A program made the translations under genes and the position numbers. Positions 4,150 to 50,523 of a stretch of DNA of 64,000 nucleotides are shown one piece after another. The notes under the pieces are model-generated. The model ran no database searches, was not told where the DNA came from, and was given only the letters and a program-made list of their open reading frames with translations. Source of the DNA: Parasedimentitalea marina (GTDB lineage: Bacteria > Pseudomonadota > Alphaproteobacteria > Rhodobacterales > Rhodobacteraceae); NCBI RefSeq assembly GCF_004006175.1, contig NZ_CP033219.1:682001-746000 (forward strand), in the 5' to 3' direction. The first letter of the stretch is position 1; every line of letters begins with the position of its first letter.

Positions 4150-4743
4150 ATGCGATATCCTGCCGCCGAAACGGCGGAGAAACATGCACGAATACTCGAT
4201 GAAGCCGCAAAGTTGTTTCGCAAGAACGGATTTTCTGGTGCGGGCGTTTCGGAGATCATGAAAGCTGCCGGGCTTACCCACGGGGGTTTTTATTCACATT
4301 TCGCCTCCAAAACCGATCTTTCAAGCGAGGTTCTGGGACATGTCATGGAAAAAACGCTGAAACATTCCGTCGATGGAATTCCGGCATCAGAGACCCCAAG
4401 TCAGGCCAAACAAACGTTTATCACAGACTATCTTAGCGCCGGGCACTGTGACTCGCCCGAAACGGGATGCGCAATGCCGACCTTGGCGACCGAGGTTGGC
4501 CGTAATCCGGCGCTGCGTCCGATGTTTTCCAAGCATTTGAAACGTCTTATCAGCCGGGTGACATCTCGGTTTGGTTGGAAAGCGGGGATTGATCAGGAAC
4601 AGCAGGCAATTGCCCTTTTGTCTTCGATTGTCGGAGCCTTGGTTCTGGCACGAGCTGTCGAGGACAAGGCCCTCTCGGACAAAATTTTGCAGTCAGTCCG
4701 TGACGTCTTGACTGAAGACACCTCTTCTACCAGAGGCGCTTAG
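4150..4743 (+). CDS. TetR family transcriptional regulator
   Basis: TetR-type repressor of 197 residues. The N-terminal HTH is typical: ILDEAAKLFRKNGF, then SEIMKAAGLTHGGFYSHFASK (recognition-helix signature) at about residues 15-60. The C-terminal ligand domain contains GCAMPTLATEVGR, as in the subgroup that includes many regulators of enzymes for reactive or aromatic compounds. GAGG precedes the ATG. Likely targets are its own promoter and the upstream hydrolase; the ligand is unknown. It converges on the HDAC-like gene with a 52-base gap. Confidence 0.9.
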   Translation: MRYPAAETAEKHARILDEAAKLFRKNGFSGAGVSEIMKAAGLTHGGFYSHFASKTDLSSEVLGHVMEKTLKHSVDGIPASETPSQAKQTFITDYLSAGHCDSPETGCAMPTLATEVGRNPALRPMFSKHLKRLISRVTSRFGWKAGIDQEQQAIALLSSIVGALVLARAVEDKALSDKILQSVRDVLTEDTSSTRGA

Positions 4744-4795
4744 GACAGGGGAGTGGAGGCATTTCCTATTGTTGGAGCGCTTCGTTTTGGTCAGC

Positions 4796-7920: not shown

Positions 7921-7921
7921 G

Positions 7922-9001: not shown

Positions 9002-9030
9002 AACGGTCCTTCCCGATCCCTGATGGGCAA

Positions 9031-9055
9031 ACGTCCGGCGGCGACCGCCGGACGT
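9031..9055 (-). terminator. Stem-loop between binding-protein gene and ATPase gene
   Basis: A perfect 11-bp stem (ACGTCCGGCGG with CCGCCGGACGT) and a 3-base loop lie just after the proX-like stop. There is no T-run, so it is more likely an mRNA-protecting or attenuating hairpin that raises binding-protein output over the downstream genes than a full terminator. Confidence 0.65.
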
Positions 9056-9070
9056 GTTAGTTGTACTGGT

Positions 9071-10003: not shown

Positions 10004-10023
10004 CATTTCCTCCCTGAGTTTCA

Positions 10024-11784
10024 TTATCGTCTGGCATTCGCCAGTAGTGCGGCGCGCAAGCTGTCCCGGTCGCCGGCATAGTCGTGACTGATGTCCCGCG
10101 ACCGTTGGCTGAGCGCCCAGTCAGGCGCTGCCAGCAGCGGCGCATCCTGCGCGGCAGGCAAGGCACGGCCCCGGATCAGGTCCGAAGCCCGCTCTGCCAG
10201 CATCAGTGTTGGTGCATTCAGGTCGCCGGCCGTTGCCTGCGGCATGACCGAGCTATCGACAACTAGAAGACCCTGGACCCCCTTAACGCGCATGGTTTTT
10301 GGGTCGACCACGGCGGCGGCGTCATCCCCCATCCGGCAGGTGCCACAGGGGTGATAGGCGCTTTCGACTTTGTCGGTGATGAATTGATCGATGCTGTCAT
10401 CGCTTTGGCAGGCATCCCCTGGTGCCAGCTCTTTACCGCGGTAGGGGGCAAAGGCTGGTTGGGCAAAAATCTCGCGCGTCAACCGGATGCAGGCGCGCAT
10501 CTCCGGCCTGTCCTCGGGATGGGTCATGTAGTTGAACCGGACCCGAGGCAGATCGCAAGAATCTGCGCTGCGCAGCCGCACCCAGCCGCGACTTTTGGAG
10601 CGTTTAGTGCCCACATGCACCTGAAACCCGTGACCTTTGGCCAGTGTTTTTCCGTCATAGGAAATAGCAAGCGGCAGAAAGTGGTACTGGATGTCCGGAT
10701 AGACAATGCCGGCGCGGCTGCGAATATGGCCGCCGCTTTCGAAATGGTTCGTCGCGCCCAATCCGCCTTTGGTCAGCAGCCACCGGGCGCCAATCATTGC
10801 TTTGCCAATAAGGTTCATGTGTGAAAACAATGACACCGGTTGGGTGCATTCCTGCTGCACATAGACCTCTAGGTGGTCCATCAGGTTTTCACCCACTTCA
10901 GCCCGGTCAGCCTGAACCTCGATCTGATGCGCCTGCAACTCTTTGGCCGGCCCGATGCCTGACCGCTTGAGGATAACCGGCGACATGATCGCACCAGCAC
11001 TGAGGATGATTTCCTGATCGGCCCGGGCCAGCTGTGGCCTACCATTTTGGGTGAACAAAACACCCGAGGCGCGACCCTGATCAAACAGGATCCGGTCCAC
11101 CAGCGCCTGCGAGATCACCCGAACGTTGCCGCGCTTGATCGCCGGGCGCAGATAACCGACCGCCGCGCTTGATCGTTTGCCGCCGCCGACCGACATCTCC
11201 ATCGGGCCCATGCCTTCGTGCTGACGCTGGTTCATGTTGGGACTGGCCGCATACCCGGCCTGCGACCCGGCCTGAACAAAGGTCTGGTACAGCGGGTTGG
11301 TTTCCGGCCCTCGCGTCACCGAGATCGGCCCATGGATGCCGCGCAATGGGCCGCCACCTTTGACATTCTCAAGACGTTGGAAATAGGGCAGCACATTTGC
11401 CCAGTGCCATCCACCAGCCCCCAATGCGGACCAAAGCTCATAGTCCATCGGATTGCCACGCACATAACACATGCCGTTGATTGACGAGGACCCGCCGAGC
11501 CCCTTGCCGCGGGGCAGGTTCATGACCCGGTTGTCCAACCCGGGCTCGGGCTCTGTCACCATGCCCCAGTTGAATCGCTTGGTGTTCATTGGGATCGACA
11601 GTGCCGTTGGCATCTCGACATATATCGATTTGTCGCTGCCGCCGGCCTCGAGCACCAAAATACGAGCTTTTGGGTCCTCGCCCAAGCGGTTGGCCAGCAC
11701 ACAGCCGGCCGATCCGGCACCAATGATGATGTAATCATAGGCTCCGATGTCAGTCGCTGTGGCGGAAGATACAGAATGTGACAT
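10024..11784 (-). CDS. GMC family FAD oxidoreductase, choline dehydrogenase-like
   Basis: FAD-dependent alcohol oxidoreductase of 586 residues, the length of BetA. The ADP-binding motif GAGSAGCVLANRL and a following Glu (LEAGG) lie at residues 22-50, the GMC signature 1 region RGKGLGGSSSINGMCYVRG near 90-110, and the catalytic His region HPCGTCRMG and NAPTLMLAE near the C-terminus. BetA oxidises choline to betaine aldehyde, but the GMC family covers many alcohols. No betaine aldehyde dehydrogenase lies beside it, and a cupin gene precedes it by 26 bases, so choline is only one candidate. It sits in the same operon as the betaine-type importer, which suggests it acts on the imported compound. 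Confidence 0.88.
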   Translation of the reverse strand: MSHSVSSATATDIGAYDYIIIGAGSAGCVLANRLGEDPKARILVLEAGGSDKSIYVEMPTALSIPMNTKRFNWGMVTEPEPGLDNRVMNLPRGKGLGGSSSINGMCYVRGNPMDYELWSALGAGGWHWANVLPYFQRLENVKGGGPLRGIHGPISVTRGPETNPLYQTFVQAGSQAGYAASPNMNQRQHEGMGPMEMSVGGGKRSSAAVGYLRPAIKRGNVRVISQALVDRILFDQGRASGVLFTQNGRPQLARADQEIILSAGAIMSPVILKRSGIGPAKELQAHQIEVQADRAEVGENLMDHLEVYVQQECTQPVSLFSHMNLIGKAMIGARWLLTKGGLGATNHFESGGHIRSRAGIVYPDIQYHFLPLAISYDGKTLAKGHGFQVHVGTKRSKSRGWVRLRSADSCDLPRVRFNYMTHPEDRPEMRACIRLTREIFAQPAFAPYRGKELAPGDACQSDDSIDQFITDKVESAYHPCGTCRMGDDAAAVVDPKTMRVKGVQGLLVVDSSVMPQATAGDLNAPTLMLAERASDLIRGRALPAAQDAPLLAAPDWALSQRSRDISHDYAGDRDSLRAALLANARR

Positions 11785-11810
11785 GCGAAAATCCAGGCTC
11801 AGCTATGGGA

Positions 11811-12170
11811 TCAATCGATCATCACGTAGTATTTCAACATCGGCTCTGTCTGCTTCCAGTAGCCGCGAAAGCCTTTGGGGACGAGAAAGGCATCGCCCTT
11901 GGTATAGGTTTCCGAGAAGTCTTCATTCTCGAGCGTCACGGAGCCTTCCAGCAGGTACATAAATTCACTGCAGGGATAGTTCTCGTAGAATTCGGTATAA
12001 GGAGAGGAGCGCCAAATACCGGCGCGAACGCCGGGTTCGTCCTTTTGAAAGTAGATGTGATCCAACCCCATCGGCTGACCCTCGATCAACTCTGCTGTTT
12101 CCAACGCGATATCGGCTGCATCTTTCCAGCCATCAGGGCCATTTGCTGCGAATTTCATGGGTTTGGTCAT
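11811..12170 (-). CDS. Small cupin-domain protein
   Basis: A 119-residue single-domain cupin. The beta-barrel motifs are recognisable (CSEFMYLLEGSVTLEN, then GDAFLVPKGFRGYWKQ), close to the cupin_3 (DUF861) group, in which metal-binding His residues are often replaced, as they largely are here. The ATG at 12170 is chosen from an AGGAAA ribosome site and the MTKPMKF start; the longer frame reaches into the LysR promoter. First gene of the six-gene operon running to 4796. It may bind or isomerise the pathway substrate; no function can be assigned. Confidence 0.8.
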   Translation of the reverse strand: MTKPMKFAANGPDGWKDAADIALETAELIEGQPMGLDHIYFQKDEPGVRAGIWRSSPYTEFYENYPCSEFMYLLEGSVTLENEDFSETYTKGDAFLVPKGFRGYWKQTEPMLKYYVMID

Positions 12171-12250
12171 GGTGTATTTCCTGTTGGGTCGCCGATTTGC
12201 CGACGAAAGTTGGCAAATAGTTACGAAACAAATCTGGAAACACGAAATTA

Positions 12251-12270
12251 TTACGGTTACACTATCGTAA
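12251..12270. promoter_or_regulatory. LysR-type operator candidate
   Basis: TTACG-N10-CGTAA is a perfect dyad centred about 30 bases before the LysR start and 90 bases before the cupin start, in the divergent promoter. It contains a T-N11-A core as expected for LysR-type regulators. A further GTTACGAAA half-site lies about 30 bases to the left. Confidence 0.6.
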
Positions 12271-12290
12271 CTTGAGGTTACTATAAACCT

Positions 12291-13244
12291 ATGTCTCACT
12301 CACCCTCTCTGACAGCCCTGCGTGCCTTTGACCTTGTTGCCCGACTGGGGTCGTTCACCGAGGCAGCGCGAAAGCAGAATGTGACACGCCCGGCGATCAG
12401 CAAGCAGGTCAAGGGCCTGGAGGTCCTGATGGGGTGCCAATTGATCGTTCGATCAGGCCCCAAAGTCACACTGACGACGCAGGGCACTGAACTTGCGGCC
12501 GGGCTGCGCCAGGGCTTTGATATAATTTCTGCCAGTACCCAAAAGGTAATCGAGCATTCCAATCACCCCAAAACGGTCCGAATCCTCGTGGAACGGGATT
12601 TCGCATCATCCTGGCTGGCAGAACGCATTGGGGCCTTTTTGGTGGCGCACCCCGGCATATCCATCGAGGTCAACGCCGAACACAATGGCCAGCTGCGTGA
12701 AGGCGAGGATTTCAGCTTTCGGATCTTTTACGGACCTAAAGGGTGCTATGAGACTGAAACACTCGTCGAGGATTTTCTGTGTGACTGGGTCGATATCCCA
12801 GTCTGTACGCCAGACTATCAGGTCGCGCATATCACCGAGCATGGCCGCTATCATAACGCCCATTTTCTGATCGACAAAAATTACAATCCCTGGTCCGAGT
12901 GGTTTGATAAGGCGGATCTGGAAAATCCGGGCGCGCAGGCGTCCTATACAAGCTTTAATGAAACCACATTATGTCTGTCAGCCGCTTTGGCGGGCTCTGG
13001 TATCACAATCGGAGACAGTTTCCTGTGCTTGCCTGCGATTGACAGTGGCCGTCTTGTTGCGCCGTTCAAAATCGGGTTGCGCAGCTCGGAACGGTATTCA
13101 ATCTGCTACCCGTCTGGGCGAACCCTGTCGAAATCTGAGAGATATTTTCAAAATTGGCTGACCCAAACAATCAAAGAATATGATCAGACCGTTGGGCAAG
13201 TCCTGAGCGGGATTGGCATCAATGTGATAGCATCGCATACCTAG
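12291..13244 (+). CDS. LysR family transcriptional regulator (GcvA-like)
   Basis: LysR regulator of 317 residues. The N-terminal HTH has the GcvA-subgroup wording (SLTALRAFDLVARLGSFTEAARKQ, then TRPAISKQVKGLE), followed by a substrate-binding-like effector domain. It is transcribed divergently from the cupin/GMC/transporter/HDAC operon with 120 bases between starts and a dyad operator candidate in the gap, so it most likely controls that operon in response to the imported amine or an oxidation product. Confidence 0.9.
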   Translation: MSHSPSLTALRAFDLVARLGSFTEAARKQNVTRPAISKQVKGLEVLMGCQLIVRSGPKVTLTTQGTELAAGLRQGFDIISASTQKVIEHSNHPKTVRILVERDFASSWLAERIGAFLVAHPGISIEVNAEHNGQLREGEDFSFRIFYGPKGCYETETLVEDFLCDWVDIPVCTPDYQVAHITEHGRYHNAHFLIDKNYNPWSEWFDKADLENPGAQASYTSFNETTLCLSAALAGSGITIGDSFLCLPAIDSGRLVAPFKIGLRSSERYSICYPSGRTLSKSERYFQNWLTQTIKEYDQTVGQVLSGIGINVIASHT

Positions 13245-16992: not shown

Positions 16993-17325
16993 TTAATCAA
17001 GGTGGAATACTGGTTCCATAGGGGCCCACCACTCTCCATCAGAGCGGGATTCAAGTGGTTTTTGCATTGGCCCGCACAGTTTCCACCAATCCTGCGTCAC
17101 CGGGTCGGCGGCTATTGCAGCGTCATCAGCAGCAAAATCTGATCCGGTGTACTCCCAGTAGCTGAACAGAAGGTTTTCTGGTTGCCGCAGGAAGATTGAG
17201 TAGTTGGTGATGTTAGATCGGCGCAACCGATCCAGCACCTGTGGCCAGACGGCGGCATGCAAACGCCTATACTCTGTGAGTGTCTCGGGATGCAGCCCGA
17301 TGACCATTCCCATTCTCTCAACCAT
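16993..17325 (-). CDS. rhaM: L-rhamnose mutarotase family protein (RhaM-like)
   Basis: A 110-residue protein of the RhaM/DUF718 family, which interconverts alpha and beta anomers of L-rhamnose and, in relatives, other 6-deoxy or L-sugars. Family hallmarks are GLHPETLTEYRRLHAAVWPQV (containing the catalytic His), NYSIFL, SYWEY and WW. GGAG precedes the ATG. It lies 63 bases downstream of the lactonase-like amidohydrolase and probably belongs to the same unit. In this sugar cluster it would supply the correct anomer of the imported sugar to the 1-dehydrogenase at 19432. Confidence 0.88.
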   Translation of the reverse strand: MVERMGMVIGLHPETLTEYRRLHAAVWPQVLDRLRRSNITNYSIFLRQPENLLFSYWEYTGSDFAADDAAIAADPVTQDWWKLCGPMQKPLESRSDGEWWAPMEPVFHLD

Positions 17326-17388
17326 TTTGGGTCTCCAACTGGGTCATTACTGTAGCGATAGCTTGGCGACTGGGTCGTGCGAGGTGGG

Positions 17389-18231
17389 TCACTGACTATC
17401 TGCCAAGCCGTAGAATATGTGCGCGGTTTGCGAGAATAACTGATCTTGTTGATCCTGTGTCAGGTCAGCCGCCAGCGTCTGCGCGACCTTGACCCAGGTA
17501 GCATAGTCCCCCGCGAGGTTCAGCACTGGCCAATCGCTGCCCCACATCATCCGGTCCGGGCCGAAACACTGATAGACGTGATCAAAAACCGGTTGCAATG
17601 TCTGGGCCGACCACCCGCTGCCGTATTCATTGGCCAGGCCGGACAGCTTGCAAAACACATTGGGATGGCCGCCCAGCTGCTTCATGCCGGCGCGCCAGTT
17701 CTCCCCGGCGTCCTGACCGCCTTGGATCACTGGTTTGGCGCAATGATCGATCACAATCGGCAAGGCCGGGATGCCCTCGGCGATTTGAGAAATCGCGTCC
17801 AAATGGCGCGGTGTCACCAATGCGTCCAGCCGCAGCCCAAGATCAGCCGCAAGTTTAAGAGCCTTTTGGACCTTGGGTTGCAGAATCCACTTGGTATTTT
17901 CGATATCCTGCAACATCGGGCGAATGCCTTTGAACCATTTGTTCTGCGCCAACTCCCGCAGCGTTGCCTCGGCGTCTTCCGCCTCTAGATCGACCCATCC
18001 GACCACCCCACAAATCAATGGGGACCCGGCTGCCAGGCTAAGAAGAAATTGAGTTTCCGCCACTGTCGGCGCCGCCTGGACGACAATTGTACCTGTTACG
18101 CCAGATGCCGCCGCGATCTGGGTCAGGTCTGCGGGCAGGAAATCACGTCGGATGGGGGCTACGCTGTCATCCATCCATGCGTAGTCACCGCGGGCGATGT
18201 GCCAGAAATGCTGATGGGCGTCGATGATCAT
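17389..18231 (-). CDS. Amidohydrolase family sugar lactonase (COG3618 type)
   Basis: Metal-dependent amidohydrolase_2 protein of 280 residues. The start MIIDAHQHFW carries the HxH metal ligands; IDHCAKP and GSDWPV supply later ligands. This is the family of L-fucono-1,5-lactonase and L-rhamnono-lactonase. The ATG at 18231 is fixed by the DAHQHFW motif; the longer frame to 18375 runs through the divergent promoter and overlaps the next gene. It would open the lactone formed by the aldo/keto reductase at 19432. It is divergent from the oxidoreductase at 18308. Confidence 0.88.
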   Translation of the reverse strand: MIIDAHQHFWHIARGDYAWMDDSVAPIRRDFLPADLTQIAAASGVTGTIVVQAAPTVAETQFLLSLAAGSPLICGVVGWVDLEAEDAEATLRELAQNKWFKGIRPMLQDIENTKWILQPKVQKALKLAADLGLRLDALVTPRHLDAISQIAEGIPALPIVIDHCAKPVIQGGQDAGENWRAGMKQLGGHPNVFCKLSGLANEYGSGWSAQTLQPVFDHVYQCFGPDRMMWGSDWPVLNLAGDYATWVKVAQTLAADLTQDQQDQLFSQTAHIFYGLADSQ

Positions 18232-18266
18232 GGTTTTGGTCCGTATTTGGAGTTGCTTGACTTTAT

Positions 18267-18285
18267 GTTTGTAATAATTAAAAAC
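18267..18285. promoter_or_regulatory. GntR-type operator candidate 1
   Basis: GTTTGTAATAATTAAAAAC is a 19-base dyad in which 8 of 9 pairs around the central A are complementary. It lies in the divergent promoter between the lactonase and the UxaB-like gene, 23 bases before the latter's start. Its right half (ATTAAAAAC) is shared with the dyad at 21421-21441. Confidence 0.55.
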
Positions 18286-18307
18286 ACAATGCAAGAAGGA
18301 GACCGCA

Positions 18308-19435
18308 ATGTCAATCACTCCGATCATCCAGTTTGGGACCAGCCGTTTCCTGCAGGCGCATGCTGATCTGTTCATTTCAGAAGCATTGCAGTGCGGCGAG
18401 GCGCTGGGCCCAATTTGCGTTGTGCAGTCCAGTGGCGAGGCGACGCGCGCCCGTCGGTTGGCGGCCTTAAGTGACCCTGCGGGATATCCAGTCCAGGTTC
18501 AGGGCCTGCAAAATGGTGAACAGGTCTCGTTTGAGACCCGCGTACAGAGCGTGACCCGGACGCTGTCGACAGCGACTGATATTGCTGAGGTGAAGCGCAT
18601 TGTGGCGTTTGAGGCGGAAATCATCCTGTCCAACACCGGGGATGCCGGCTGGGTGCCACAAGCCGCTGACACCAAACTGGATTTTAGTCAGGACATGTCT
18701 TATCCGGCCAAGCTGACGCATCTTTTGTTAGGTCGGTTCCAGGCTGGTGGACAGCCTATTCAGGTGATGCCAACGGAGTTGGTGGCGCAGAATGGTACTG
18801 CACTAAGGCACCGTGTTCTGGAGATTGCCGCACCCCTGTCTGCCAAGTTTGCGGCCTGGATTGAAGCAGAGGTACGGTTCGTCAACTCGCTGGTGGATCG
18901 CATCGTGTCCGAACCCCTGCACCCTGCCGGTGCTGTGGCTGAGCCCTATGCCTTGTGGGCAATAGAAGACTGCCCGGGGCTGCGTTTGCCCTGCGCGCAT
19001 CCCGCAATCACGGTGGTGGCTACGTTGGAACAGACCGAGGCGCTAAAGCTGTACATCCTTAATCTTGGTCACAGTTACCTTGTTGAGGGATGGTTGCAAC
19101 GCGGTCGACAGGGGGCGGAATTCGTCCGTGATCTGCTGTCAGATCCCGCCGTGCGCGGCGATCTGGAGAACCTGTATGCCCAGGAGGTCTTGCCTGCATT
19201 TGCAGCCCGAGGGTTGGGGCCAGAGGCGCAGGCCTATGTTGCGACCACTCTGGACCGGTTTTCAAACCCGTATCTAGACCACCGCCTGGCAGATATTGCC
19301 CAGAACCATCCCGAGAAAGTGCATCGGCGCATCGGCGCATTTCTGGACTGGTCTGCTACGCAAGACAACGCCACCGCGCGCCCAAGGCTCACCGCCATTG
19401 TGGATCACATTCGTAAATCAAAGGATCGGACATGA
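18308..19435 (+). CDS. Mannitol-dehydrogenase-family oxidoreductase (tagaturonate reductase/UxaB-like)
   Basis: NAD(H)-dependent polyol/uronate oxidoreductase of 375 residues. It begins IIQFGTSRFLQAHADLF, as UxaB and UxuB do, and holds the catalytic signature KLYILNLGHS (Lys247, Asn252, His255). Classical UxaB is about 480 residues, so this is a shorter subfamily. In the context of UxaA and the LgoD-like dehydrogenase, reduction of D-tagaturonate to D-altronate is the most natural step; direct oxidation of another polyol is an alternative. AAGGAGA precedes the ATG, and the next gene overlaps as ATGA. Confidence 0.82.
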   Translation: MSITPIIQFGTSRFLQAHADLFISEALQCGEALGPICVVQSSGEATRARRLAALSDPAGYPVQVQGLQNGEQVSFETRVQSVTRTLSTATDIAEVKRIVAFEAEIILSNTGDAGWVPQAADTKLDFSQDMSYPAKLTHLLLGRFQAGGQPIQVMPTELVAQNGTALRHRVLEIAAPLSAKFAAWIEAEVRFVNSLVDRIVSEPLHPAGAVAEPYALWAIEDCPGLRLPCAHPAITVVATLEQTEALKLYILNLGHSYLVEGWLQRGRQGAEFVRDLLSDPAVRGDLENLYAQEVLPAFAARGLGPEAQAYVATTLDRFSNPYLDHRLADIAQNHPEKVHRRIGAFLDWSATQDNATARPRLTAIVDHIRKSKDRT

Positions 19436-20412
19436 AGCGAAATCAAATCGGCAAAACGGCTGTAGAGGTATCTGAGTTGTCCTTTGGCTGCGCAAGCATT
19501 GGCAATCTGTACCGCGAGGTGTCCGATCATGACGTGACCGCGCTTCTCAACTGCACCTGGGACCGGGGCATTCGCTATTTTGACACTGCCCCGCATTATG
19601 GACGCGGATTGTCGGAGATGCGGTTGGGGGCATTTCTACGTGGGAAAAATCGGGACGATTATGTGGTGTCGACAAAGGTGGGCCGACGTCTATCCCCGGG
19701 TGGGGCACTGGATGAGGCGGACGGGTTCGTGCATCCGCTGCCCAATGATGTGCGATATGACTATTCCGGCGATGGTATCGAGGCCGCGTTTGAGCAAAGT
19801 TGTGAGCGGCTTGGGACCTCTCGCATTGATATCCTGTATGTCCACGATATCGGCAGCTACACCCATGGCGCTGCCAATGTGGCGCATTTTGCCGATCTGA
19901 TGGACAGCGGGGTGGATCGTTTGCAGGCCCTGAAAAACGCGGGCCGGATTGGGGCCTTTGGGCTTGGTGTGAATGAGAATGCGGTCTGCCTGGAGGTGAT
20001 GCGCGAGGTTGATATTGATGTCATCCTGCTGGCAGGGCGGTTGACGCTGCTGGATCGCAGCGGGGAAGAGGAGCTTGTAGACCTGTGCCGGGCCAAAGGA
20101 ACAAGCCTAGTTCTGGGTGGGATTTTCAATTCCGGCATCCTGGCCACCGGGCCAGTACCCGGAGCACATTTTGACTATGCCCCGCCCTCGGCTGGGGTAC
20201 TGGCCAAAGTCACCGAACTTCAACGGCGTGCGGACGCCGTCGGGGTGCCGCTGGCAACCGCAGCTTTGCGGTTCGCGGTACGCCATCCTGCTGCGGCTTC
20301 TGTTTTGCTGGGCACTGCCAAATCAAAATCCCTGACACGAAACCTGGATGCTCTGGATGCCCCGTGGCCGGATGGGGCAGATGGTATTTTTACGCCCATG
20401 GAAGATCGGTAA
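19432..20412 (+). CDS. Aldo/keto reductase, L-galactose/L-fucose 1-dehydrogenase-like
   Basis: NAD(P)-dependent aldo/keto reductase of 326 residues with the full catalytic tetrad: Asp51, Tyr56, Lys82 and His138. The YFDTAPHYGRGLSE segment and the long loop before VRYDYSGDG are typical of the D-threo-aldose/L-fucose/L-galactose 1-dehydrogenase group, which oxidises the anomeric carbon to a lactone. Its start overlaps the upstream stop (ATGA). With the lactonase and UxaA as neighbours, oxidation of a free L-sugar is likely; L-galactose fits the later steps better than L-fucose. Confidence 0.85.
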   Translation: MKRNQIGKTAVEVSELSFGCASIGNLYREVSDHDVTALLNCTWDRGIRYFDTAPHYGRGLSEMRLGAFLRGKNRDDYVVSTKVGRRLSPGGALDEADGFVHPLPNDVRYDYSGDGIEAAFEQSCERLGTSRIDILYVHDIGSYTHGAANVAHFADLMDSGVDRLQALKNAGRIGAFGLGVNENAVCLEVMREVDIDVILLAGRLTLLDRSGEEELVDLCRAKGTSLVLGGIFNSGILATGPVPGAHFDYAPPSAGVLAKVTELQRRADAVGVPLATAALRFAVRHPAAASVLLGTAKSKSLTRNLDALDAPWPDGADGIFTPMEDR

Positions 20413-21318
20413 CTATTGGGCGCGGCCATGGATGCGCAAAGCCGAAAGCAGCGTTTGCTTGGATGTCTTAAGGTGATCGCGGGCGGCGTCTAAGGCGGCG
20501 GCCTCATCACGGGTGCGAATGGCATCCAGTATTCTCAGATGCTCCTGAATGGCGGCCTCATTCCTATCGCGTTCATCTTTCTTGTCCCATTGGTAGTGGT
20601 AGTGAAACACTAGCGATATGACCTTTTGAAATTCCTCAACAAACCGGTTTTGCACGATTTTCCCAATGGTCGTGTGGAACCGTTCGTCAAGCAACGAGAA
20701 GTCGTGGTAGCGGCTGTCGATCTGTTCAGCGAGTTGTTTGTGATCGGCTTCAAGTGCGTCCAGTTGCGGCCAGATTTCGTGATCATCGGGCAGTGATACA
20801 AGCTGTGAAATCGCATTCAATTCGAGCATATTGCGAAAATCCGAAAGCTCGACCGCAAAGTCAGTGGTAAACCCGACCAGCTCCCATCCACCCTTTTGCC
20901 GTCTTTGAACCAGCCCAAAGCGGCTGAGGGAGGCAAGGAATTCCTGGAGGGAATGGGGGGGTACGTTAAATTTACGGGCCATATCGGTGACGTTCAGGGC
21001 GGTGCCGGGGGGGACGTCAAATCGCAAGATCCAGTCGAGGAACTGGCTTTCCAGTTCGTCCTCTGAAACCTGCTCAGTTCTGACATCCAATCGATCCGAC
21101 TTGCGCGGTTTGCGCAGCAGCGTTTTGTCGCGGCCGTTCCAGTCGATGATACCCTCGCCATCCAGACGTTGCAGGGCTGAACGGACAACGGTTCGACTGA
21201 CATCCAACCTGTCGGCCAGACTGAGTTCCGAGGGAAGTTTGTCGGTGCGGGCCAGATTCGAACAGACGTCTAGCAGCGCATTATAGGCCGTTCTGAAGCG
21301 TTCGTCGGTTCTCGCCAT
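20413..21318 (-). CDS. GntR/FadR-type regulator with two winged-helix domains
   Basis: Regulator of 301 residues. A first winged HTH occupies about residues 10-68 (LADRLDVSRTVVRSALQRLDGEGII), a second about 88-148 (DMARKFNVPPHSLQEFLASLSRFGLV), and an FCD ligand domain 152-295. Ordinary FadR-group proteins have one HTH and about 230 residues, so the extra domain is unusual. The stop abuts that of the aldo/keto reductase. It diverges from the sugar ABC operon and probably represses both that operon and the 18308 operon through the two similar dyads noted. The ligand is probably the sugar or a pathway acid. Confidence 0.85.
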   Translation of the reverse strand: MARTDERFRTAYNALLDVCSNLARTDKLPSELSLADRLDVSRTVVRSALQRLDGEGIIDWNGRDKTLLRKPRKSDRLDVRTEQVSEDELESQFLDWILRFDVPPGTALNVTDMARKFNVPPHSLQEFLASLSRFGLVQRRQKGGWELVGFTTDFAVELSDFRNMLELNAISQLVSLPDDHEIWPQLDALEADHKQLAEQIDSRYHDFSLLDERFHTTIGKIVQNRFVEEFQKVISLVFHYHYQWDKKDERDRNEAAIQEHLRILDAIRTRDEAAALDAARDHLKTSKQTLLSALRIHGRAQ

Positions 21319-21390
21319 TTCTAAACCTCATATTTAACAGCTTATATATACTACCAAAATTCCCATGCGGTCGACAATAATAAAAAACAA

Positions 21391-21420
21391 TTGACAGCGC
21401 GGCCTGTTGTTGAGCAATAT
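21391..21420 (+). promoter_or_regulatory. Sigma-70-type promoter candidate for the sugar ABC operon
   Basis: TTGACA (21391-21396) and CAATAT (21415-21420) are separated by 18 bases and lie 40 bases before the permease start. The operator-like dyad at 21421 immediately follows, where a bound repressor would block transcription. Confidence 0.5.
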
Positions 21421-21441
21421 GGTTTTCAATTATTAAATACC
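21421..21441. promoter_or_regulatory. GntR-type operator candidate 2
   Basis: A 21-base dyad running GGTTTTCAAT, a central T, then ATTAAATACC, with 8 of 10 pairs complementary. It overlaps the expected transcription start of the ABC operon. The half-site resembles that of the dyad at 18267, giving a joint pattern of GGTTTTxAAT-W-ATTxAAAACC. Confidence 0.5.
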
Positions 21442-21460
21442 AATCCACGGGAGATGTGGG

Positions 21461-22483
21461 ATGTATGAAGTCATCGCAAGGGCACGGGCCGAGGGCGCGC
21501 GTTTTAGGCTACAGCCCGAGATGTTCCACAAGCTATCAGCGGCACTCACGCTTTTAATTCTGGTCGCAATTTTTGCCTTCGGGAATCCGGCATTTCTGTC
21601 TGTGAACAATGGCTTGACCATTATGCTTCAGACGTCGGTGATAGGGTTGCTTGGGATTGGCATGACAATGGTCATCATCACTGGTGGCATCGATCTGAGT
21701 GTGGGGTCGGTTCTGGCGCTGTCGGGAACGGTAACCGGCATGTTGGTCAAATCGGGCATGCCGGTACTTCCCGCCATGTTTTGTGGCGTTATCGTTGGTG
21801 CCCTATGCGGGTTGTTCAACGGGTTTGTCATCACAAAGATGCGGATCACACCCTTTGTTGCAACGCTTGGAATGATGCTGATTGCGCGCGGTATCGCCTT
21901 GCAGCTTACAGGTGCCGCGCCAATTTCCCGCCTGGGAGAAGCGTTTGGGGTTCTTGGCAATGGGGCCTTGTTCCGCATTGTTGAAATGGGCGCCAATGGG
22001 TTTCCCAAAGTCGTCTTCCCTGGCATCCCATATCCGGTGATCCTACTCGTGGTCGTCGCAATTTTGGGCTCGTATATGCTGCGCCGTCGTCAGATCGGAC
22101 GCCATATCTATGCCACTGGATCCAATGAAGAGGCCGCACGTCTGGCAGGTGTCGAAGTCGACCGGACCAAGATGATTGCCTACTCACTGTCCGGTGCCCT
22201 TGCGGGCCTGTCCGGGATTGTCCTGATGTCCCGGCTTGTCACTGCCCAGCCCAATGAGGGCGTCATGTATGAGCTCGACGCCATCGCCGCAGCCGTTATC
22301 GGCGGTGCATCTCTAATGGGAGGGGTGGGGGCAATATCGGGCACATTGATCGGCGCCTTCATCATCGGCGTCCTGCGCAATGGCCTGAATATGGCCGGAG
22401 TGTCTGCCTTTATCCAACAGATTGTAATCGGTTTTGTCGTCATCTTTGCCGTCTACATCGATCAGATCCGTAGCCGCCGGTAA
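21461..22483 (+). CDS. Sugar ABC transporter permease (RbsC/FrcC-like)
   Basis: Inner-membrane permease of 340 residues in the branched RbsC family. It has about ten hydrophobic helices and the family motifs GIGMTMVIITGGIDLSVGSVLAL, and TGSNEEAARLAGVEVDRTK in the coupling loop. GGGAG lies before the ATG. First gene of a five-gene operon (permease, binding protein, ATPase, dehydrogenase, altronate dehydratase). The gene order and the enzymes downstream suggest import of the free sugar degraded by this cluster. Confidence 0.92.
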   Translation: MYEVIARARAEGARFRLQPEMFHKLSAALTLLILVAIFAFGNPAFLSVNNGLTIMLQTSVIGLLGIGMTMVIITGGIDLSVGSVLALSGTVTGMLVKSGMPVLPAMFCGVIVGALCGLFNGFVITKMRITPFVATLGMMLIARGIALQLTGAAPISRLGEAFGVLGNGALFRIVEMGANGFPKVVFPGIPYPVILLVVVAILGSYMLRRRQIGRHIYATGSNEEAARLAGVEVDRTKMIAYSLSGALAGLSGIVLMSRLVTAQPNEGVMYELDAIAAAVIGGASLMGGVGAISGTLIGAFIIGVLRNGLNMAGVSAFIQQIVIGFVVIFAVYIDQIRSRR

Positions 22484-22520
22484 GCGGTCGAATACCAAAC
22501 TTCAACGGGAGGAAAATACC

Positions 22521-23462
22521 ATGAAAACATCTTTGAAAGCTGTACTTACTGCGACAACGATTGCGATGTTGCCAGTAACGGCAATGGCGGGGGAGATCGC
22601 TGTTATTGTGAAAACGACGAACTCAAATTTCTGGCAGAACGTCAATAAAGGCGCAAGCGCAGCCATCGAGGCGCAGTCTGACCATACTTTCACATTCAAT
22701 GGCCCGGCGTCTGAATCCGCGATCGCGGACCAGGTCAACCTTGTTGAAAACGCGATCAACCGGGGTGTTTCGGGTATTGTTCTGGCCCCATCCGACCCTG
22801 ATGCCCTGACACCGGCGGTCAAACGTGCCTATGAGTCAGGTATTCCAGTCGTCATCATCGACTCCGGCCTGTCTGACGGGGCAAAAGGCACTTTCCAGGC
22901 GTTCCTGTCGACAGACAACTGTGCCGCAGGCAAACTGGTGGCAGATCAGATGATTGAAAAAGTAGGCACCGAAGGCAAAGTTGCCGTCATGTCCTATGTT
23001 GCAGGTGTGGGATCCGAAATTGGCCGTGTTGGTTGTTTTGTCGAACAGCTTGGTGCTCACTCCAATCTTGAAGTTGTCGGTCCGTTCTACTCGCAGTCGC
23101 AAATGGCGACGGCACTGAACCAAACCACGGATATTTTGGCCGCAAACGGGGATCTGGTTGGGATCTTTGGCGCGAATGAGCCAACCGCTGTTGGCATGGG
23201 CCGTGCCCTGGTGCAAGCGGGCAAAGCTGGGACCGTGACGGCCATCGGTTTCGACGGCAACGGCGATCTGCAAGATTTCGTGCGCGATGGAACTCTGCTT
23301 GGAACTGCCGTTCAGGGCTCGTTTCAAATGGGTGAATTGGGTGTGAATGCAGTGATCGACGTCCTGAACGGGAAGTCCGTCGAGTCCTTCATCGACACTG
23401 GCGTTGTTCTTGTCACCAAGGGCAACATTGACGATCCGGTCGCCCAAAACGTCCTGTACTAA
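22521..23462 (+). CDS. Sugar ABC transporter substrate-binding protein
   Basis: Periplasmic sugar-binding protein of 313 residues (peripla_BP_4 / RbsB type). The signal peptide ends at about residue 24 (PVTAMAGE). The mature protein starts IAVIVKTTNSNFWQNVNKGA and has the hinge and ligand segments IVLAPSDPDALTPAVKRA, STDNCAAGKLVADQM and ANEPTAVGMGRAL. The ATG at 22521 follows GGGAGG; the longer frame lies inside the permease gene. A strong stem-loop follows the stop, which probably raises its level relative to the ATPase gene. Confidence 0.92.
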   Translation: MKTSLKAVLTATTIAMLPVTAMAGEIAVIVKTTNSNFWQNVNKGASAAIEAQSDHTFTFNGPASESAIADQVNLVENAINRGVSGIVLAPSDPDALTPAVKRAYESGIPVVIIDSGLSDGAKGTFQAFLSTDNCAAGKLVADQMIEKVGTEGKVAVMSYVAGVGSEIGRVGCFVEQLGAHSNLEVVGPFYSQSQMATALNQTTDILAANGDLVGIFGANEPTAVGMGRALVQAGKAGTVTAIGFDGNGDLQDFVRDGTLLGTAVQGSFQMGELGVNAVIDVLNGKSVESFIDTGVVLVTKGNIDDPVAQNVLY

Positions 23463-23470
23463 CCTCCCCT

Positions 23471-23517
23471 GGCCAGCCGTTGCCCGTTTGTATCTTTGGG
23501 CGCTGGCTGGCCCTTTT
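23471..23517 (+). terminator. Attenuating terminator inside the sugar operon
   Basis: GGCCAGCC and GGCTGGCC pair over 8 bp, extended by an inner GCCC/GGGC pairing after a mismatch, followed by TTTT. It lies between the binding-protein and ATPase genes, so it is likely a partial terminator. Confidence 0.7.
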
Positions 23518-23540
23518 ACTTAAGACCCGGAGCCGGTTCT

Positions 23541-24332
23541 ATGAATATGCACAGACAGACCCCCACACCGCTTGTCGAAATGGTCGGCATCGAAAAACAC
23601 TTTGGCGGTGTGCGTGCGGTGGATGGAGTATCGGTCGATCTTTACCCCGGCGAGGTTGTTGGTGTTCTGGGCCATAACGGGGCAGGAAAATCCTGTCTGA
23701 TGCGGATCCTGTCCGGGGCCATGATGCCCAGCAACGGTGAAATTCGGGTGCGTGGCGAACGTGCCCAAATTCAGTCCCCCCACGAGGCCCGCGAGTTCGG
23801 GGTCGAGACGATCTATCAAACACTGGCCCTTGCGGATCATTTGGATGCGCCTGCCAACCTTTTCCTTGGGCGTGAGTTGAAAACACCCTTAGGCAATCTG
23901 GATGACAAGCGGATGATGAAAGAGGCGCGGGCAGTGCTGCATCGCCTGAACCCCAATTTCAAGAATCTGAGTGATCCTGTTTCAAGCCTGTCGGGTGGTC
24001 AGCGTCAGGTCATCGCAATTGCTCGAGCCATCTATTTCAATGTAAATATCCTGATCATGGATGAACCAACAGCCGCACTGGGACCATCCGAGACGGCCAT
24101 GGTTGCCGAGTTGATCAAGAAACTGAGCGCGGCGGGCATTGGGATCTTTCTGGTCAGCCACGATATGGCGGATGTCTTTGAACTGTGTGACCGGGTGATG
24201 GTCATGAACAAGGGTCGCAATGTCGGGTCCTACAAAATTGACGAAGTATCAAAGGATGACGTGTTGAGCCTTATTATCAAAGGTGATTTGCCCGACGGCT
24301 GGACGCCTCGTAACGGTGAGGTGGCGCAGTGA
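23541..24332 (+). CDS. Sugar ABC transporter ATP-binding protein (FrcA-like, single domain)
   Basis: ATPase of 263 residues with one nucleotide-binding domain: Walker A GHNGAGKSC, Q-loop IYQTLALADHLD, signature LSGGQRQVIAIARA, Walker B LIMDEPTAALG and switch His in VSHDM. RbsA-type partners of this permease family normally have two fused domains of about 500 residues; the single-domain form is as in FrcA. The ATG at 23541 is preferred; the frame extends to 23496 through the terminator. Its stop overlaps the next gene (GTGA). Confidence 0.9.
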   Translation: MNMHRQTPTPLVEMVGIEKHFGGVRAVDGVSVDLYPGEVVGVLGHNGAGKSCLMRILSGAMMPSNGEIRVRGERAQIQSPHEAREFGVETIYQTLALADHLDAPANLFLGRELKTPLGNLDDKRMMKEARAVLHRLNPNFKNLSDPVSSLSGGQRQVIAIARAIYFNVNILIMDEPTAALGPSETAMVAELIKKLSAAGIGIFLVSHDMADVFELCDRVMVMNKGRNVGSYKIDEVSKDDVLSLIIKGDLPDGWTPRNGEVAQ

Positions 24333-25363
24333 ATATCGTTCAAGATGCCCCGGCTGCTACGACCAAAATGCTGTGTGGAACCTGTGTGGAACCCGGCCAG
24401 TTTACCCTTAGGGAATATGATTTGCCCACCTCGGCGCCACAGGGATGGGCGCTGATCGATATCAGCGCGGTTGGGATCTGTGGCACAGACTATCACATAT
24501 TCGAGGGTAAGCACCCATTCCTGCAGTACCCGCGCGTCATCGGCCATGAATTGAGCGGTATCGTGCATCAGGATGCAGGTGAGCTAAAAGCGGGAACGCT
24601 GGTTGCTGTGAACCCCTATCTGTCGTGCGGTGACTGTCGTGCCTGCCAGCGTGGAAAGCCGAACTGTTGCAGTAAGATAGAGGTACTGGGCGTGCACCGT
24701 GACGGTGGGCTTTGTGCCCGGATTGCAGTGCCCATTGGCAACCTATACCCCGCCGATGGTTTGACAGAGATACAGGCGGCGATGGTCGAATTCCTGGCCA
24801 TCGGAGCACATGCCGTGCGGCGTTCGGACGTGACCAAAGGGGATCGTGTGCTGGTGACGGGGGCAGGGCCCATCGGGTTGGGCGCTGCGTTGTTTGCGCG
24901 GCTTGCCGGGGCCGAGGTCCATTTGTTGGATCTAAGCGCTGCGCGGCTGCAATTGGCCAGAGAGAAATTTGGCTTTACAAATCTGCATCAGGACGTGGAT
25001 TCTGCTGCACAGGGGCCGCTTGCCGATGGGTTTGACGTGATTTTTGATGCGACGGGCAATGCCCAGGCCATTGAGGCCGGATTTCCGCTGCTGGCGCATG
25101 GCAGCAGTTATGTTTTGGTGAGTGTGGTGAAGGATAAGATTTCATTTGAAGACGCTGAGTTTCACAAACGCGAGACCCGGATCATCGGCAGCCGGAACGC
25201 CTTGAAGGGTGATTTTGATCAGGTCATGCAGGCGATGCGTGCCGGGGATATTGATACAGAGGCACTGTGTTCCGAGATCCTTGCGCTGGATGCGCTGCCC
25301 GACCGGTTCAGATCACTTGCAAATAACCGGGAAACCCTGATCAAGGTGGTGGTGAAATTATGA
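24329..25363 (+). CDS. Zinc-dependent alcohol dehydrogenase, L-galactonate 5-dehydrogenase (LgoD)-like
   Basis: Medium-chain NAD-dependent dehydrogenase of 344 residues. The catalytic zinc ligands are Cys51, His73 and Glu74 (ICGTDYH ... IGHELSG); the structural zinc site is C100-x2-C103-x2-C106-x7-C114; the Rossmann motif is GAGPIGLGAA. This is the sorbitol/L-threonine/L-galactonate dehydrogenase group. A GTG start overlaps the upstream TGA, with GAGGTGG before it. Lying directly before uxaA, it would oxidise L-galactonate to D-tagaturonate, as E. coli LgoD does; other sugar acids are possible. Confidence 0.82.
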   Translation: MNIVQDAPAATTKMLCGTCVEPGQFTLREYDLPTSAPQGWALIDISAVGICGTDYHIFEGKHPFLQYPRVIGHELSGIVHQDAGELKAGTLVAVNPYLSCGDCRACQRGKPNCCSKIEVLGVHRDGGLCARIAVPIGNLYPADGLTEIQAAMVEFLAIGAHAVRRSDVTKGDRVLVTGAGPIGLGAALFARLAGAEVHLLDLSAARLQLAREKFGFTNLHQDVDSAAQGPLADGFDVIFDATGNAQAIEAGFPLLAHGSSYVLVSVVKDKISFEDAEFHKRETRIIGSRNALKGDFDQVMQAMRAGDIDTEALCSEILALDALPDRFRSLANNRETLIKVVVKL

Positions 25364-26889
25364 GTGTAACCAGTGACACCCATCCAGTGCTTGTCTTGAA
25401 CGCAGAGGATAATGTTGCCGTTGCCCTTGCACCACTGGCCCCCGGTGACGACCTTGGCAAGGGGCAGGGTAAAGTTACTCAGCCGGTGCCTGCCGGACAT
25501 AAGGTGTCCAGAACGCCGATCTCTGCGGGGACCAACGTTCTGAAGTACGGCCAGATTATCGGTCGCGCAACCGAGGACATTCCAGCGGGCGCGCATGTCC
25601 ACAGCCACAATCTTGGGATGGGCGACCATAAGCAATCACATGCCTTGGCTACAGAGCTGCCACAGATCGTGCCGAGTGAGAGCGCGGACCAATTTATGGG
25701 ATATCACCGGCCCTCTGGCCGTGTGGGGACGCGCAATTACATTGGTATTTTGACCTCGGTCAATTGTGCCGGCTCGGTCGCAAAGTTCGTGGCCGAGGTC
25801 GCTGAGAAAACGGAGTTGCTGAAAGAATTTGGAAATGTTGACGGGATCATCCCGATCACTCATGGGTCTGGTTGCGGGATGTCTTCTAAAGGTGAAGGCT
25901 ATGAAACACTGTTTCGCACGCTGACAGGCTATGCACAGAATCCAAATTTCGGTGCCATCCTGATGATTGGGCTGGGATGTGAGGTCATGCAGATCTCGAC
26001 ACTGGTTGGCCATGAGGGGATCCGCGATGAGACCCGGTTTCGGTTCATGACCATTCAGCAATCCGGTGGCACGCGGGCCACGGTTGAGGCCGCACAACCC
26101 ATCTTGCGAGAGCTTGCTGTTGAGGCAAACAAGGCACAGCGCGCGCCTGCGCCAGCCTCGGCACTGACAGTGGGGCTGCAATGTGGTGGCTCGGACGGGC
26201 TGTCTGGTATTACCGCCAATCCCGCCTTGGGGGTGGCCTCGGACTTGTTGGTGGCCCAGGGCGGCACGTCAATTTTATCCGAAACGTCAGAGATCTACGG
26301 TGCCGAACATCTGTTGACCAGCCGCGCCGCTACGCCAGATATTGCCGCGGCATTGCTGGATCGTATTGCCTGGTGGGAAGATTACACAGCCCGCAATTTT
26401 GGTGAGATGGACAACAACCCGTCGCCGGGCAACAAACGTGGCGGCCTGACCACCATTTTGGAAAAATCCCTCGGCGCGGTGGCCAAGGCGGGGGCGGCGC
26501 CTATGAATGGTGTCTTCCGATACGCAGAGCCGATCGACAGGCCGGGTTTTGTATTCATGGACAGCCCCGGATACGACCCGTGTTCGGTAACCGGGCAGGT
26601 GGCATCTGGCGCAAATCTGATAGTGTTCACAACGGGTCGTGGATCGGCGTCGGGGTACAAGCCTACGCCCTGTATCAAGCTGGCGTCGAATAGCGATATG
26701 TATCAGCGCATGGAAGAAGACATGGATGTGAACTGCGGGGACATCGTGACCGGCACGACGCTTGAGGCGAAGGGGCAAGAGATCTACCGCTTGATGCTTG
26801 AGATTGCCTCGGGTCGCCCATCCAAAAGCGAGATGCTGGGCTATGGTGCAGTTGAATTTGTCCCGTGGCAGATTGGTGCGGTGATGTAG
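25360..26889 (+). CDS. uxaA: Altronate dehydratase (UxaA family)
   Basis: UxaA/GarD-family dehydratase of 509 residues with a fused N-terminal SAF domain (residues ~10-90) and the C-terminal dehydratase part. Family motifs seen are HRPSGRVGTRNYIGI, HGSGCGMSSKGEG, LGCEVMQI, LQCGGSDGLSGITANPALG and the Cys/Asp-rich end (DVNCGDIV). It dehydrates D-altronate to 2-keto-3-deoxy-D-gluconate; the galactarate dehydratase branch is the alternative, less likely given the UxaB-like and LgoD-like genes. The ATG overlaps the upstream stop as ATGA. Last gene of the operon. Confidence 0.88.
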   Translation: MSVTSDTHPVLVLNAEDNVAVALAPLAPGDDLGKGQGKVTQPVPAGHKVSRTPISAGTNVLKYGQIIGRATEDIPAGAHVHSHNLGMGDHKQSHALATELPQIVPSESADQFMGYHRPSGRVGTRNYIGILTSVNCAGSVAKFVAEVAEKTELLKEFGNVDGIIPITHGSGCGMSSKGEGYETLFRTLTGYAQNPNFGAILMIGLGCEVMQISTLVGHEGIRDETRFRFMTIQQSGGTRATVEAAQPILRELAVEANKAQRAPAPASALTVGLQCGGSDGLSGITANPALGVASDLLVAQGGTSILSETSEIYGAEHLLTSRAATPDIAAALLDRIAWWEDYTARNFGEMDNNPSPGNKRGGLTTILEKSLGAVAKAGAAPMNGVFRYAEPIDRPGFVFMDSPGYDPCSVTGQVASGANLIVFTTGRGSASGYKPTPCIKLASNSDMYQRMEEDMDVNCGDIVTGTTLEAKGQEIYRLMLEIASGRPSKSEMLGYGAVEFVPWQIGAVM

Positions 26890-49875: not shown

Positions 49876-50523
49876 TCAGCGCGTCAGTTGACTGGCAGCG
49901 CGAGCTAGTTCTTCGATTTTGCCCCATTCGCCATTGTTGACCAGATCACTGGGCGCCACCCAGCTGCCGCCCGCGCAGATAACGTTGGAGAGGGACAGGT
50001 AAGAGGCCGCATTGGATGGGCTGACGCCACCTGTCGGACAGAACGAGACCTGTGGTAGTGGTGCACCGATGGCTTTTAGCGCAGGAACCCCGCCTGAGGC
50101 CTCGGCTGGGAAAAACTTTAGCATGTCATAGCCACGTTCCAGCAGACGCATTGCCTCGCTGGCGGTGGCCGCGCCGGCCAGCATGGGCAAGCCAATGTCT
50201 TCGCAGGCATCCAGCAGATTGTCAGTCGCCCCGGGTGAGACACCGAATTGTGCACCGGCTTCGACCGCTGCCGTGACATCATCCGGGGTGATCAGGGTGC
50301 CGGCACCAACAATGCCGCCCTCGACCTTTGACATTTCGCGGATCACATCCAAAGCGACTGGAGTACGCAGGGTGACTTCTAGTGCGGGCAGACCGCCACG
50401 CACCAGGGCTTCGGCCAAAGGGCGGGCATGGGCAACGTCATGCACCACCAGAACCGGGATAATAGGGGCCATGCGGCAGATTTCGCGATTGCGGGCGCTG
50501 GCGGCCTGGGGGGAGATCGACAT
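49876..50523 (-). CDS. eda: KDPG/KHG aldolase
   Basis: Class I aldolase of 215 residues cleaving 2-keto-3-deoxy-6-phosphogluconate to pyruvate and glyceraldehyde-3-phosphate. The proton-relay Glu is in ALEVTLRT, the Schiff-base Lys in MLKFFPAEASGG, and the phosphate site in FCPTGGVSPSNA. It starts 3 bases after the edd stop, so it is cotranscribed with pgi-zwf-edd. It would also receive KDPG made from KDG of the altronate route if a KDG kinase exists elsewhere. Confidence 0.95.
   Translation of the reverse strand: MSISPQAASARNREICRMAPIIPVLVVHDVAHARPLAEALVRGGLPALEVTLRTPVALDVIREMSKVEGGIVGAGTLITPDDVTAAVEAGAQFGVSPGATDNLLDACEDIGLPMLAGAATASEAMRLLERGYDMLKFFPAEASGGVPALKAIGAPLPQVSFCPTGGVSPSNAASYLSLSNVICAGGSWVAPSDLVNNGEWGKIEELARAASQLTR

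Follow-up and report, generated by a model that had tools for sequence, protein, structure and literature searches.

A ten-gene cluster in Parasedimentitalea marina is predicted to import L-galactose and oxidise it to 2-keto-3-deoxygluconate

We analysed a stretch of 64,000 nucleotides (C1:682001-746000, referred to as the window) of the 5.08 Mb genome of Parasedimentitalea marina, in which ten open genes at 16993-26889 were recognised from the list of reading frames and by Pfam and NCBIfam scans. At a probability that we put near 60%, these genes form an import and oxidation module that converts L-galactose to 2-keto-3-deoxygluconate (KDG). This reading draws on the gene families, intact catalytic residues, a conserved gene arrangement and the position of one gene as the best match of the genome to E. 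coli LgoD; every substrate, the order of the steps and an induction by L-galactose or a derivative are predictions from sequence.

In the proposed pathway, the ABC importer would take L-galactose in, and a RhaM-type mutarotase would give the right anomer. An aldo/keto reductase (AKR) would then oxidise carbon 1 to yield the lactone, which a COG3618-type lactonase would open to L-galactonate. The LgoD-like zinc dehydrogenase would oxidise carbon 5 of L-galactonate to form D-tagaturonate, the short UxaB-like enzyme would reduce D-tagaturonate to D-altronate, and the UxaA-family dehydratase would convert D-altronate to KDG. KDG would enter the Entner-Doudoroff route via 2-keto-3-deoxy-6-phosphogluconate (KDPG) aldolase, and the GntR protein would regulate the cluster.

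The coordinates of the genes are given in Table 1. At one end the mutarotase and lactonase genes run leftward, followed by the rightward UxaB-like and AKR genes, whose frames share four bases. The GntR/FCD gene again runs leftward, and beyond it the permease, binding protein, half-size ATPase, zinc dehydrogenase and UxaA genes run rightward. A preliminary description of this DNA had named the enzymes and the importer, and those genes are present, all open, in the families given (Pfam, NCBIfam); its gene list had left out the GntR/FCD regulator. The lactonase start was revised from 18375 to 18231 (MIIDAHQHFW), which is probably correct because the longer frame runs into the divergent gene at 18308, and for the zinc dehydrogenase the ATG at 24368 is a possible start. 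Recent transfer as judged by composition was dropped, since the GC content of the cluster (0.560) resembles that of the window (0.566) and no tRNA lies between 8000 and 36000 of the window.

Table 1. Features of the proposed L-galactose cluster and the KDPG aldolase of the window (positions in the window).
Feature	Position	Strand	Basis
Aldose mutarotase, RhaM family, 110 aa	16993..17325	-	Pfam rhaM 112.5 bits (cut-off 23.4)
Aldonolactonase, COG3618 type, L-fucono/L-galactono-lactonase-like, 280 aa	17389..18231	-	Amidohydro_2 175 bits; PDB 4dlf 121 bits
Short UxaB-like reductase, proposed tagaturonate reductase, 375 aa	18308..19435	+	mannitol-dehydrogenase family
AKR, proposed L-galactose 1-dehydrogenase	19432..20412	+	top PDB matches are L-galactose dehydrogenases, 90 bits
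GntR/FCD regulator	20413..21318	-	Pfam FCD and GntR
Divergent intergenic region, candidate GntR operator	21319..21460	.	motif search on 55 orthologous regions
Sugar ABC permease, ribose type	21461..22483	+	BPD_transp_2 178 bits
Periplasmic sugar-binding protein	22521..23462	+	Peripla_BP_4 186 bits
Half-size sugar ABC ATPase	23541..24332	+	single ABC_tran domain; start picked by eye
Zinc dehydrogenase, LgoD-like, proposed L-galactonate 5-dehydrogenase	24329..25363	+	40% identity to E. coli LgoD
UxaA/GarD superfamily dehydratase, proposed altronate dehydratase	25360..26889	+	Pfam SAF and both GD_AH domains
KDPG aldolase, probable end of route, outside cluster	49876..50523	-	Pfam PF01081 223.7 bits

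When E. coli LgoD was searched against the genome, the zinc dehydrogenase of the window scored 255 bits and the runner-up 133.6. Among the NCBIfam models, the UxaB-like reductase matched tagaturonate reductase best (185 bits, cut-off 359), with fructuronate reductase at 57 bits, and relatives of 374 and 382 aa matched the tagaturonate reductase model alone at an E-value of 1e-30. A score as tagaturonate rather than fructuronate reductase fits altronate as the product. Residue motifs that we take to be catalytic or structural are kept in all three enzymes, namely Cys51/His73/Glu154 plus four structural Cys in the zinc dehydrogenase, the Lys247-Asn252-His255 triad in the UxaB-like reductase and Cys136/172/207/275 in the UxaA-family dehydratase. 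The four conserved cysteines of the UxaA family are given in PMC6336799.

Related loci (numbered with L) were collected by a scan with the zinc dehydrogenase, and the best 80 of 346 were analysed. A gene was called present by tblastn identity thresholds, and open reading frames were clustered with scoring by codon-position GC, since shadow frames mask genes. The resulting counts are lower bounds, since contig ends truncate several of the loci, and all loci were selected by the zinc dehydrogenase. The loci, titled Rhodobacterales and Hyphomicrobiales, retain the GntR gene in 68 cases, AKR in 49, UxaA in 45, the UxaB-like gene in 39, the lactonase in 27 and the mutarotase in 24. The trio of zinc dehydrogenase, UxaB-like and UxaA genes occurs in 22/80. 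The ten-gene grouping is above chance, because 12 of the 80 loci hold all ten genes together and a Paracoccus seriniphilus plasmid has them in an order identical to that of the window. Thalassospira marina carries GntR, zinc dehydrogenase, UxaB-like and UxaA genes and then a TRAP importer; Diaphorobacter has an amino-acid-type ABC importer followed by the trio and a kinase (IolC-type 161 bits, KDG/2-keto-3-deoxygalactonate kinase 155 bits, each under its cut-off). No AKR, lactonase or mutarotase was annotated in these two trio stretches, which we take as aldonate-only modules. Such trios are expected if the trio acts on the aldonate and the aldose front end is an addition in the cluster of the window. 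UxaA was not found in 35 of the 80 loci. We rejected these gaps as evidence against the trio, since all 21 of those checked have UxaA of 54-71% identity elsewhere in the genome, although this result has little weight without a background rate.

Some loci stood out on other grounds. L006 (11193-12236), and likewise L009 and L011 (Alloyangia, Salipiger), has a second zinc dehydrogenase after the first and no UxaA in the locus; that of L006 scored 354 bits with the L-idonate 5-dehydrogenase model (cut-off 469). In L118 (S. meliloti Ak57 pSymB, 2036-13032), UxaA, AKR, importer and zinc dehydrogenase genes stand beside an HpaI-type aldolase and gabD, with no UxaB-like gene annotated; it perhaps serves a different sugar. 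The plasmids CP070278.1 (246,192 bases) and NZ_CP066788.1 (246,197 bases), both from cold seep, gave equal match scores and are labelled Dysgonomonadaceae bacterium and Martelella lutilitoris, respectively, so that one label is probably wrong.

For the periplasmic binding protein, none of the NCBIfam models shown reached its cut-off. An expectation-maximisation search of 55 GntR-permease regions, with palindromic symmetry imposed and no shuffled control for that set, gave a candidate operator with a consensus near TGTCAAAAnnTTTTGACA. Among regions before the UxaB-like gene, 5/20 (16-base motif) or 4/20 (18-base motif) were above the shuffled 95% level. The region before the UxaB-like gene of the window is below that level, and we rejected a shared operator as proof of one regulon.

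In the aldose front end, the mutarotase has 62% identity to its counterpart within a kinase-mutarotase fusion (L052, see below) and 60% to the mutarotase of a separate cluster on contig C5 of the same genome. The lactonase scored 215 bits with the L-fucono-1,5-lactonase model (FuconLaconase), under the cut-off of 400; an aldonolactonase of the COG3618 type is present by family, and its lactone specificity is a prediction. The L-galactose pathway of Bacteroides vulgatus described by Hobbs in 2014 is said to include a COG3618 lactonase step.

Several results weigh against L-galactose as the substrate or against single steps, and are given in this and the following paragraphs. None of the ten proteins reached an NCBIfam curated cut-off among the models shown, and all three E. 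coli comparisons gave 30-42% identity. The UxaB-like protein is 30% identical to E. coli UxaB over 385 columns and is shorter (375 vs 483 aa). With E. coli UxaB as query, a 475-aa gene at C1:336760 scored 86.7 bits and the gene of the window 83.7, so that orthology of the latter to UxaB is unproven. The UxaA-family protein is equidistant from E. coli UxaA (36%) and GarD (37%). In a UxaA tree of 36 orthologues of 480-545 aa, from which cluster members of other lengths were left out, L-fucose and KDG contexts were intermixed; as the reference branches are also very long, we rejected this tree as proof of altronate specificity. We assign the two enzymes tentatively as altronate dehydratase and tagaturonate reductase. 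The region ahead of the UxaB-like gene of the window, as noted, did not show the candidate operator. Close relatives of the AKR, among the best 120 matches, are named D-threo-aldose 1-dehydrogenase, pyridoxal 4-dehydrogenase or aldo/keto reductase. The AKR of the L-fucose cluster on contig C5 has the same five top PDB matches, the L-galactose dehydrogenases, with a best score of 102 bits as compared with 90 for that of the window. L-galactose and L-fucose are thus not separable by this match, and the AKR likeness was rejected as proof of L-galactose. As a separate observation, the neighbours of the C1:336760 gene appear by eye to form a hexuronate operon.

A second sample was chosen by the UxaB-like gene, which was found in 12 of the 147 relatives searched (the genome of the window included) and in three of the seven other genomes listed for the genus. 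In the 11 other neighbourhoods, LgoD-like genes occur in 8 and UxaA in 7 at an identity of at least 50%. L146, L150 and L151 have neither at this threshold, the UxaB-like match of L147 contains an internal TGA, and L149, on a contig equal in length to that of L034, is probably the same genome as this locus of the first sample. The three congeners carry genes for an FAH-family hydrolase, a short-chain dehydrogenase/reductase (SDR), a kinase-mutarotase and the lactonase on one side, and UxaB-like, AKR, GntR, importer, zinc dehydrogenase and UxaA genes on the other; the FAH and SDR genes belong among the points against L-galactose. The UxaB-like protein of the window is 54-55% identical to those of the congeners and 69% to that of Tritonibacter aquimaris (L012). 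Because the latter is closer, the copy in the window may stem from another lineage.

Kinase and mutarotase motifs stand in one frame of 413-483 aa in L042, L046, L052, L062, L071 and L143-L145. L065 and L012 have the kinase as its own gene near the mutarotase, and in L041 and L050 a more distant kinase (37-39%) follows the FAH gene. The L052 fusion has both Pfam domains, and the best model for its kinase half is KDG kinase (278.5 bits, cut-off 400), which links a sugar-entry enzyme to KDG. No description of such a fusion was found among the matches listed in a literature search by titles and abstract openings.

The contig C5 cluster (L098) comprises an AKR, an IclR-like regulator, a mutarotase, an SDR, an FAH hydrolase and an enolase-family protein. 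The FAH hydrolase scored 422 bits with the 2,4-didehydro-3-deoxy-L-rhamnonate hydrolase model (cut-off 500). For the enolase-family protein the best PDB match was 4ip4 (mandelate racemase-like, 808 bits), followed by L-fuconate dehydratases at 559 bits. The PDB matches of the SDR are titled merely 'SDR family oxidoreductase' and may be the L-2-keto-3-deoxyfuconate dehydrogenase entries of PMC11199699. The FAH family occurs at six places in the genome and nowhere in the window, and no SDR was seen by eye among the frames near the cluster of the window; both are on C5. An enolase-type L-fuconate dehydratase is predicted on C5, and the UxaA of the window may act on L-fuconate as well. Because the genome has this separate L-fucose cluster with a fuconate dehydratase, L-fucose is less likely than L-galactose for the cluster of the window.

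In the wider gene family the two sugars are less cleanly separated. Genes for an L-fucose-type SDR and FAH lie next to the same genes in 21/80 loci of the first sample, with the UxaB-like gene in 11 of the 21 and not in the other 10. Six of these ten genomes were tested for a UxaB-like gene elsewhere: L025, L029, L044, L058 and L061 had none above 37% and L072 one of 59%. L058, L059, L060 and L063 hold LgoD-like, UxaA, SDR and FAH genes plus a further SDR, with no UxaB-like gene in the locus; this further SDR, tested on L060, scored 428 bits with the NCBIfam L-fucose dehydrogenase model, above the cut-off of 300. The LgoD-like gene thus also occurs in clusters without the reductase, some of them with L-fucose dehydrogenase, and since it is not strictly tied to the reductase, its assignment is weakened.

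We therefore weighed a dual module in which both sugars would share the importer, mutarotase, AKR and lactonase. LgoD, UxaB and UxaA would convert L-galactonate to KDG, whereas L-fuconate would be directly dehydrated by the same UxaA and then processed by SDR and FAH enzymes, in this genome those of contig C5. The 21 mixed loci and the three congeners that join FAH, SDR and kinase-mutarotase speak for it. An enolase-type fuconate dehydratase was found in 0/21 genomes with SDR and FAH in the cluster as compared with 8/29 without (Fisher p 0.015), a value that is only indicative, as it ignores kinship (the eight include three closely related genomes, of Alloyangia and Salipiger) and the 29 were picked for holding parts of the cluster, from the 59 loci without SDR and FAH, of which they make up about half. 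One UxaA-family enzyme acts on D-arabinonate (100%), D-altronate (12%), L-fuconate (5.6%) and L-galactonate (2.4%), acids that share the configuration at C2-C4 (PMC6336799), and Halomonas loci merge L-fucose and L-galactonate genes (PMC5507952). The C5 cluster might also borrow the lactonase of the window, although no lactonase search of C5 was made. However, SDR and FAH are absent from the cluster of the window, and the genome has an L-fucose cluster of its own that includes AKR, mutarotase, SDR, FAH and fuconate dehydratase, so that we consider a dual module unlikely here, though it is the main rival reading. The ancestral module may have been dual, with the copy of the window retaining the L-galactose part only.

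Tentatively, a modular system in Rhodobacterales and their relatives can be drawn from these loci, which we regard as possible but doubtful. Importer, mutarotase, AKR and lactonase would supply two branches with one promiscuous UxaA-family dehydratase in common. The L-fucose branch would dehydrate its acid directly and pass the product to SDR and FAH; the L-galactose branch would invert carbon 5 with two enzymes to reach KDG, which would then meet the kinase fused to the mutarotase. The lineage of the window would have no L-fucose branch, replaced by the separate enolase-type L-fucose cluster. Two neighbouring matters concern other sugar acids. A second enolase-superfamily protein of 370 aa adjoins the L-fucose genes (L098, C5:42000-61000, at 8458-9570) and scored 276 bits with the L-talarate/galactarate dehydratase model (cut-off 500). 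L100 (C1:600000-619000, at 3672-10687) has a UxaA-family frame of 389 aa, which aligns with the galactarate dehydratase model only from position 105 on, as well as an AKR; inspection by eye adds a tripartite tricarboxylate importer and a sulfatase-like gene, and the locus is possibly another sugar-acid cluster.

For the steps beyond KDG, the KDPG-aldolase family has three genes in the genome, one of them inside the window. As a further point against L-galactose, none of the seven proteins that cover the eight PfkB places of the genome reached the KDG kinase cut-off; they include ribokinase-like, IolC-like and HMP-P kinase types, and the kinase-mutarotase fusion as query found kinases at 23-34% identity only. 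A DGOK-family kinase with a neighbouring aldolase lies at C1:1066068-1067470. This pair, together with the lack of a recognised KDG kinase among the PfkB proteins scanned, would suit another L- or rare sugar or acid handled by the same enzyme classes at other stereocentres, such as L-glucose/L-gluconate, as in Paracoccus 43P and Luteolibacter, or D-arabinose. In Luteolibacter, the AKR and the dehydrogenase each take substrates of the L-galactose and L-glucose series (PMC12632266), and the UxaA superfamily includes D-arabinonate and D-idonate dehydratases (PMC6336799). We nevertheless hold this to be improbable, as the reductase scores as tagaturonate reductase, relatives carry a KDG-kinase-like fusion and D-arabinose needs neither of the carbon-5 redox enzymes. 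The missing kinase could also mean that the cluster was pared down from a larger module and no longer supports growth by itself; in congeners, the place of the lone mutarotase of the window is taken by kinase-mutarotase, SDR and FAH. We give this very little credence, since none of the ten frames is interrupted, the catalytic residues that were checked are intact and another kinase may phosphorylate KDG.

L-galactose to KDG, as proposed in the preliminary description, thus remains the best fit, although the pathway as such had already been published (PMC12632266). Its wording 'complete to KDG' holds by gene count; UxaA and UxaB orthology was not shown and a KDG kinase was not recognised. That L-fucose fits less well is borne out for this genome by the separate L-fucose cluster and qualified by the 21 of 80 loci and three congeners with SDR and FAH; as a dismissal of L-fucose for the gene family it failed, given the L060 group with an L-fucose dehydrogenase above cut-off.

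Polysaccharides of red algae, and some from animals, contain L-galactose. If our reading is right, members of Rhodobacterales and neighbouring orders can use it by a compact gene set, which public annotation labels 'altronate dehydratase family', 'zinc-binding alcohol dehydrogenase' and 'D-mannonate oxidoreductase'. The fusion and the mixed L-fucose/L-galactose loci make the idea of one dehydratase for two sugars testable. L-galactose use by Rhodobacterales was not found among the matches listed in a literature search by titles and abstract openings, which covered few subscription journals.

The chemistry itself has precedents in other bacteria, and it is through its enzyme set, the fusion and the mixed loci that the system counts as a variant. 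The route from L-galactose via L-galactonate, tagaturonate and altronate to KDG is published (PMC12632266, Yachida 2025, citing Hobbs 2014). By description, lguABCDEF of Luteolibacter sp. LG18, a dual L-glucose/L-galactose pathway backed by enzymes and knock-outs, resembles the cluster of the window in joining an AKR, an NAD-dependent L-galactonate dehydrogenase, a tagaturonate reductase and an altronate dehydratase (PMC12632266). There, one AKR serves L-galactose and L-glucose, one dehydrogenase serves L-galactonate and L-gluconate, and the cluster yields KDG and then KDPG. It differs from that of the window in its regulator, annotated as an HTH-type activator (Btr), in the KDPG aldolase inside the cluster and, in the accessible text, in having no lactonase, mutarotase or importer. 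Its authors state there that no organism is reported with six orthologues lacking only LguG. Bacteroides (Phocaeicola) vulgatus, of another phylum and likened by description, has an L-galactose dehydrogenase (BVU_0219), an L-galactonate dehydrogenase (BVU_0222) and a tagaturonate intermediate (via PMC12632266).

The LgoD-UxaB-UxaA route of E. coli for L-galactonate comprises the same steps, with identities of 40% (LgoD), 30% (UxaB) and 36% (UxaA) to the proteins of the window. In contrast to the window, the E. coli genes lie at three places, the route begins at the acid and UxaB is about 110 aa longer. Loci predicted in Halomonas to join L-fucose and L-galactonate genes share lgoD, uxaA and uxaB (or uxaF) with the window, beside L-fucose-pathway genes; the Halomonas/Chromohalobacter L-fucose/L-fuconate/L-galactonate loci use a TRAP importer, whereas the cluster of the window has no L-fucose SDR or FAH (PMC5507952). 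The non-phosphorylating D-arabinose/L-fucose pathways likewise combine a UxaA-family dehydratase and an AKR, with the SDR and FAH found in relatives of the window (PMC6336799). Unlike them, the cluster of the window is without SDR and FAH and has in addition the LgoD-like and UxaB-like enzymes.

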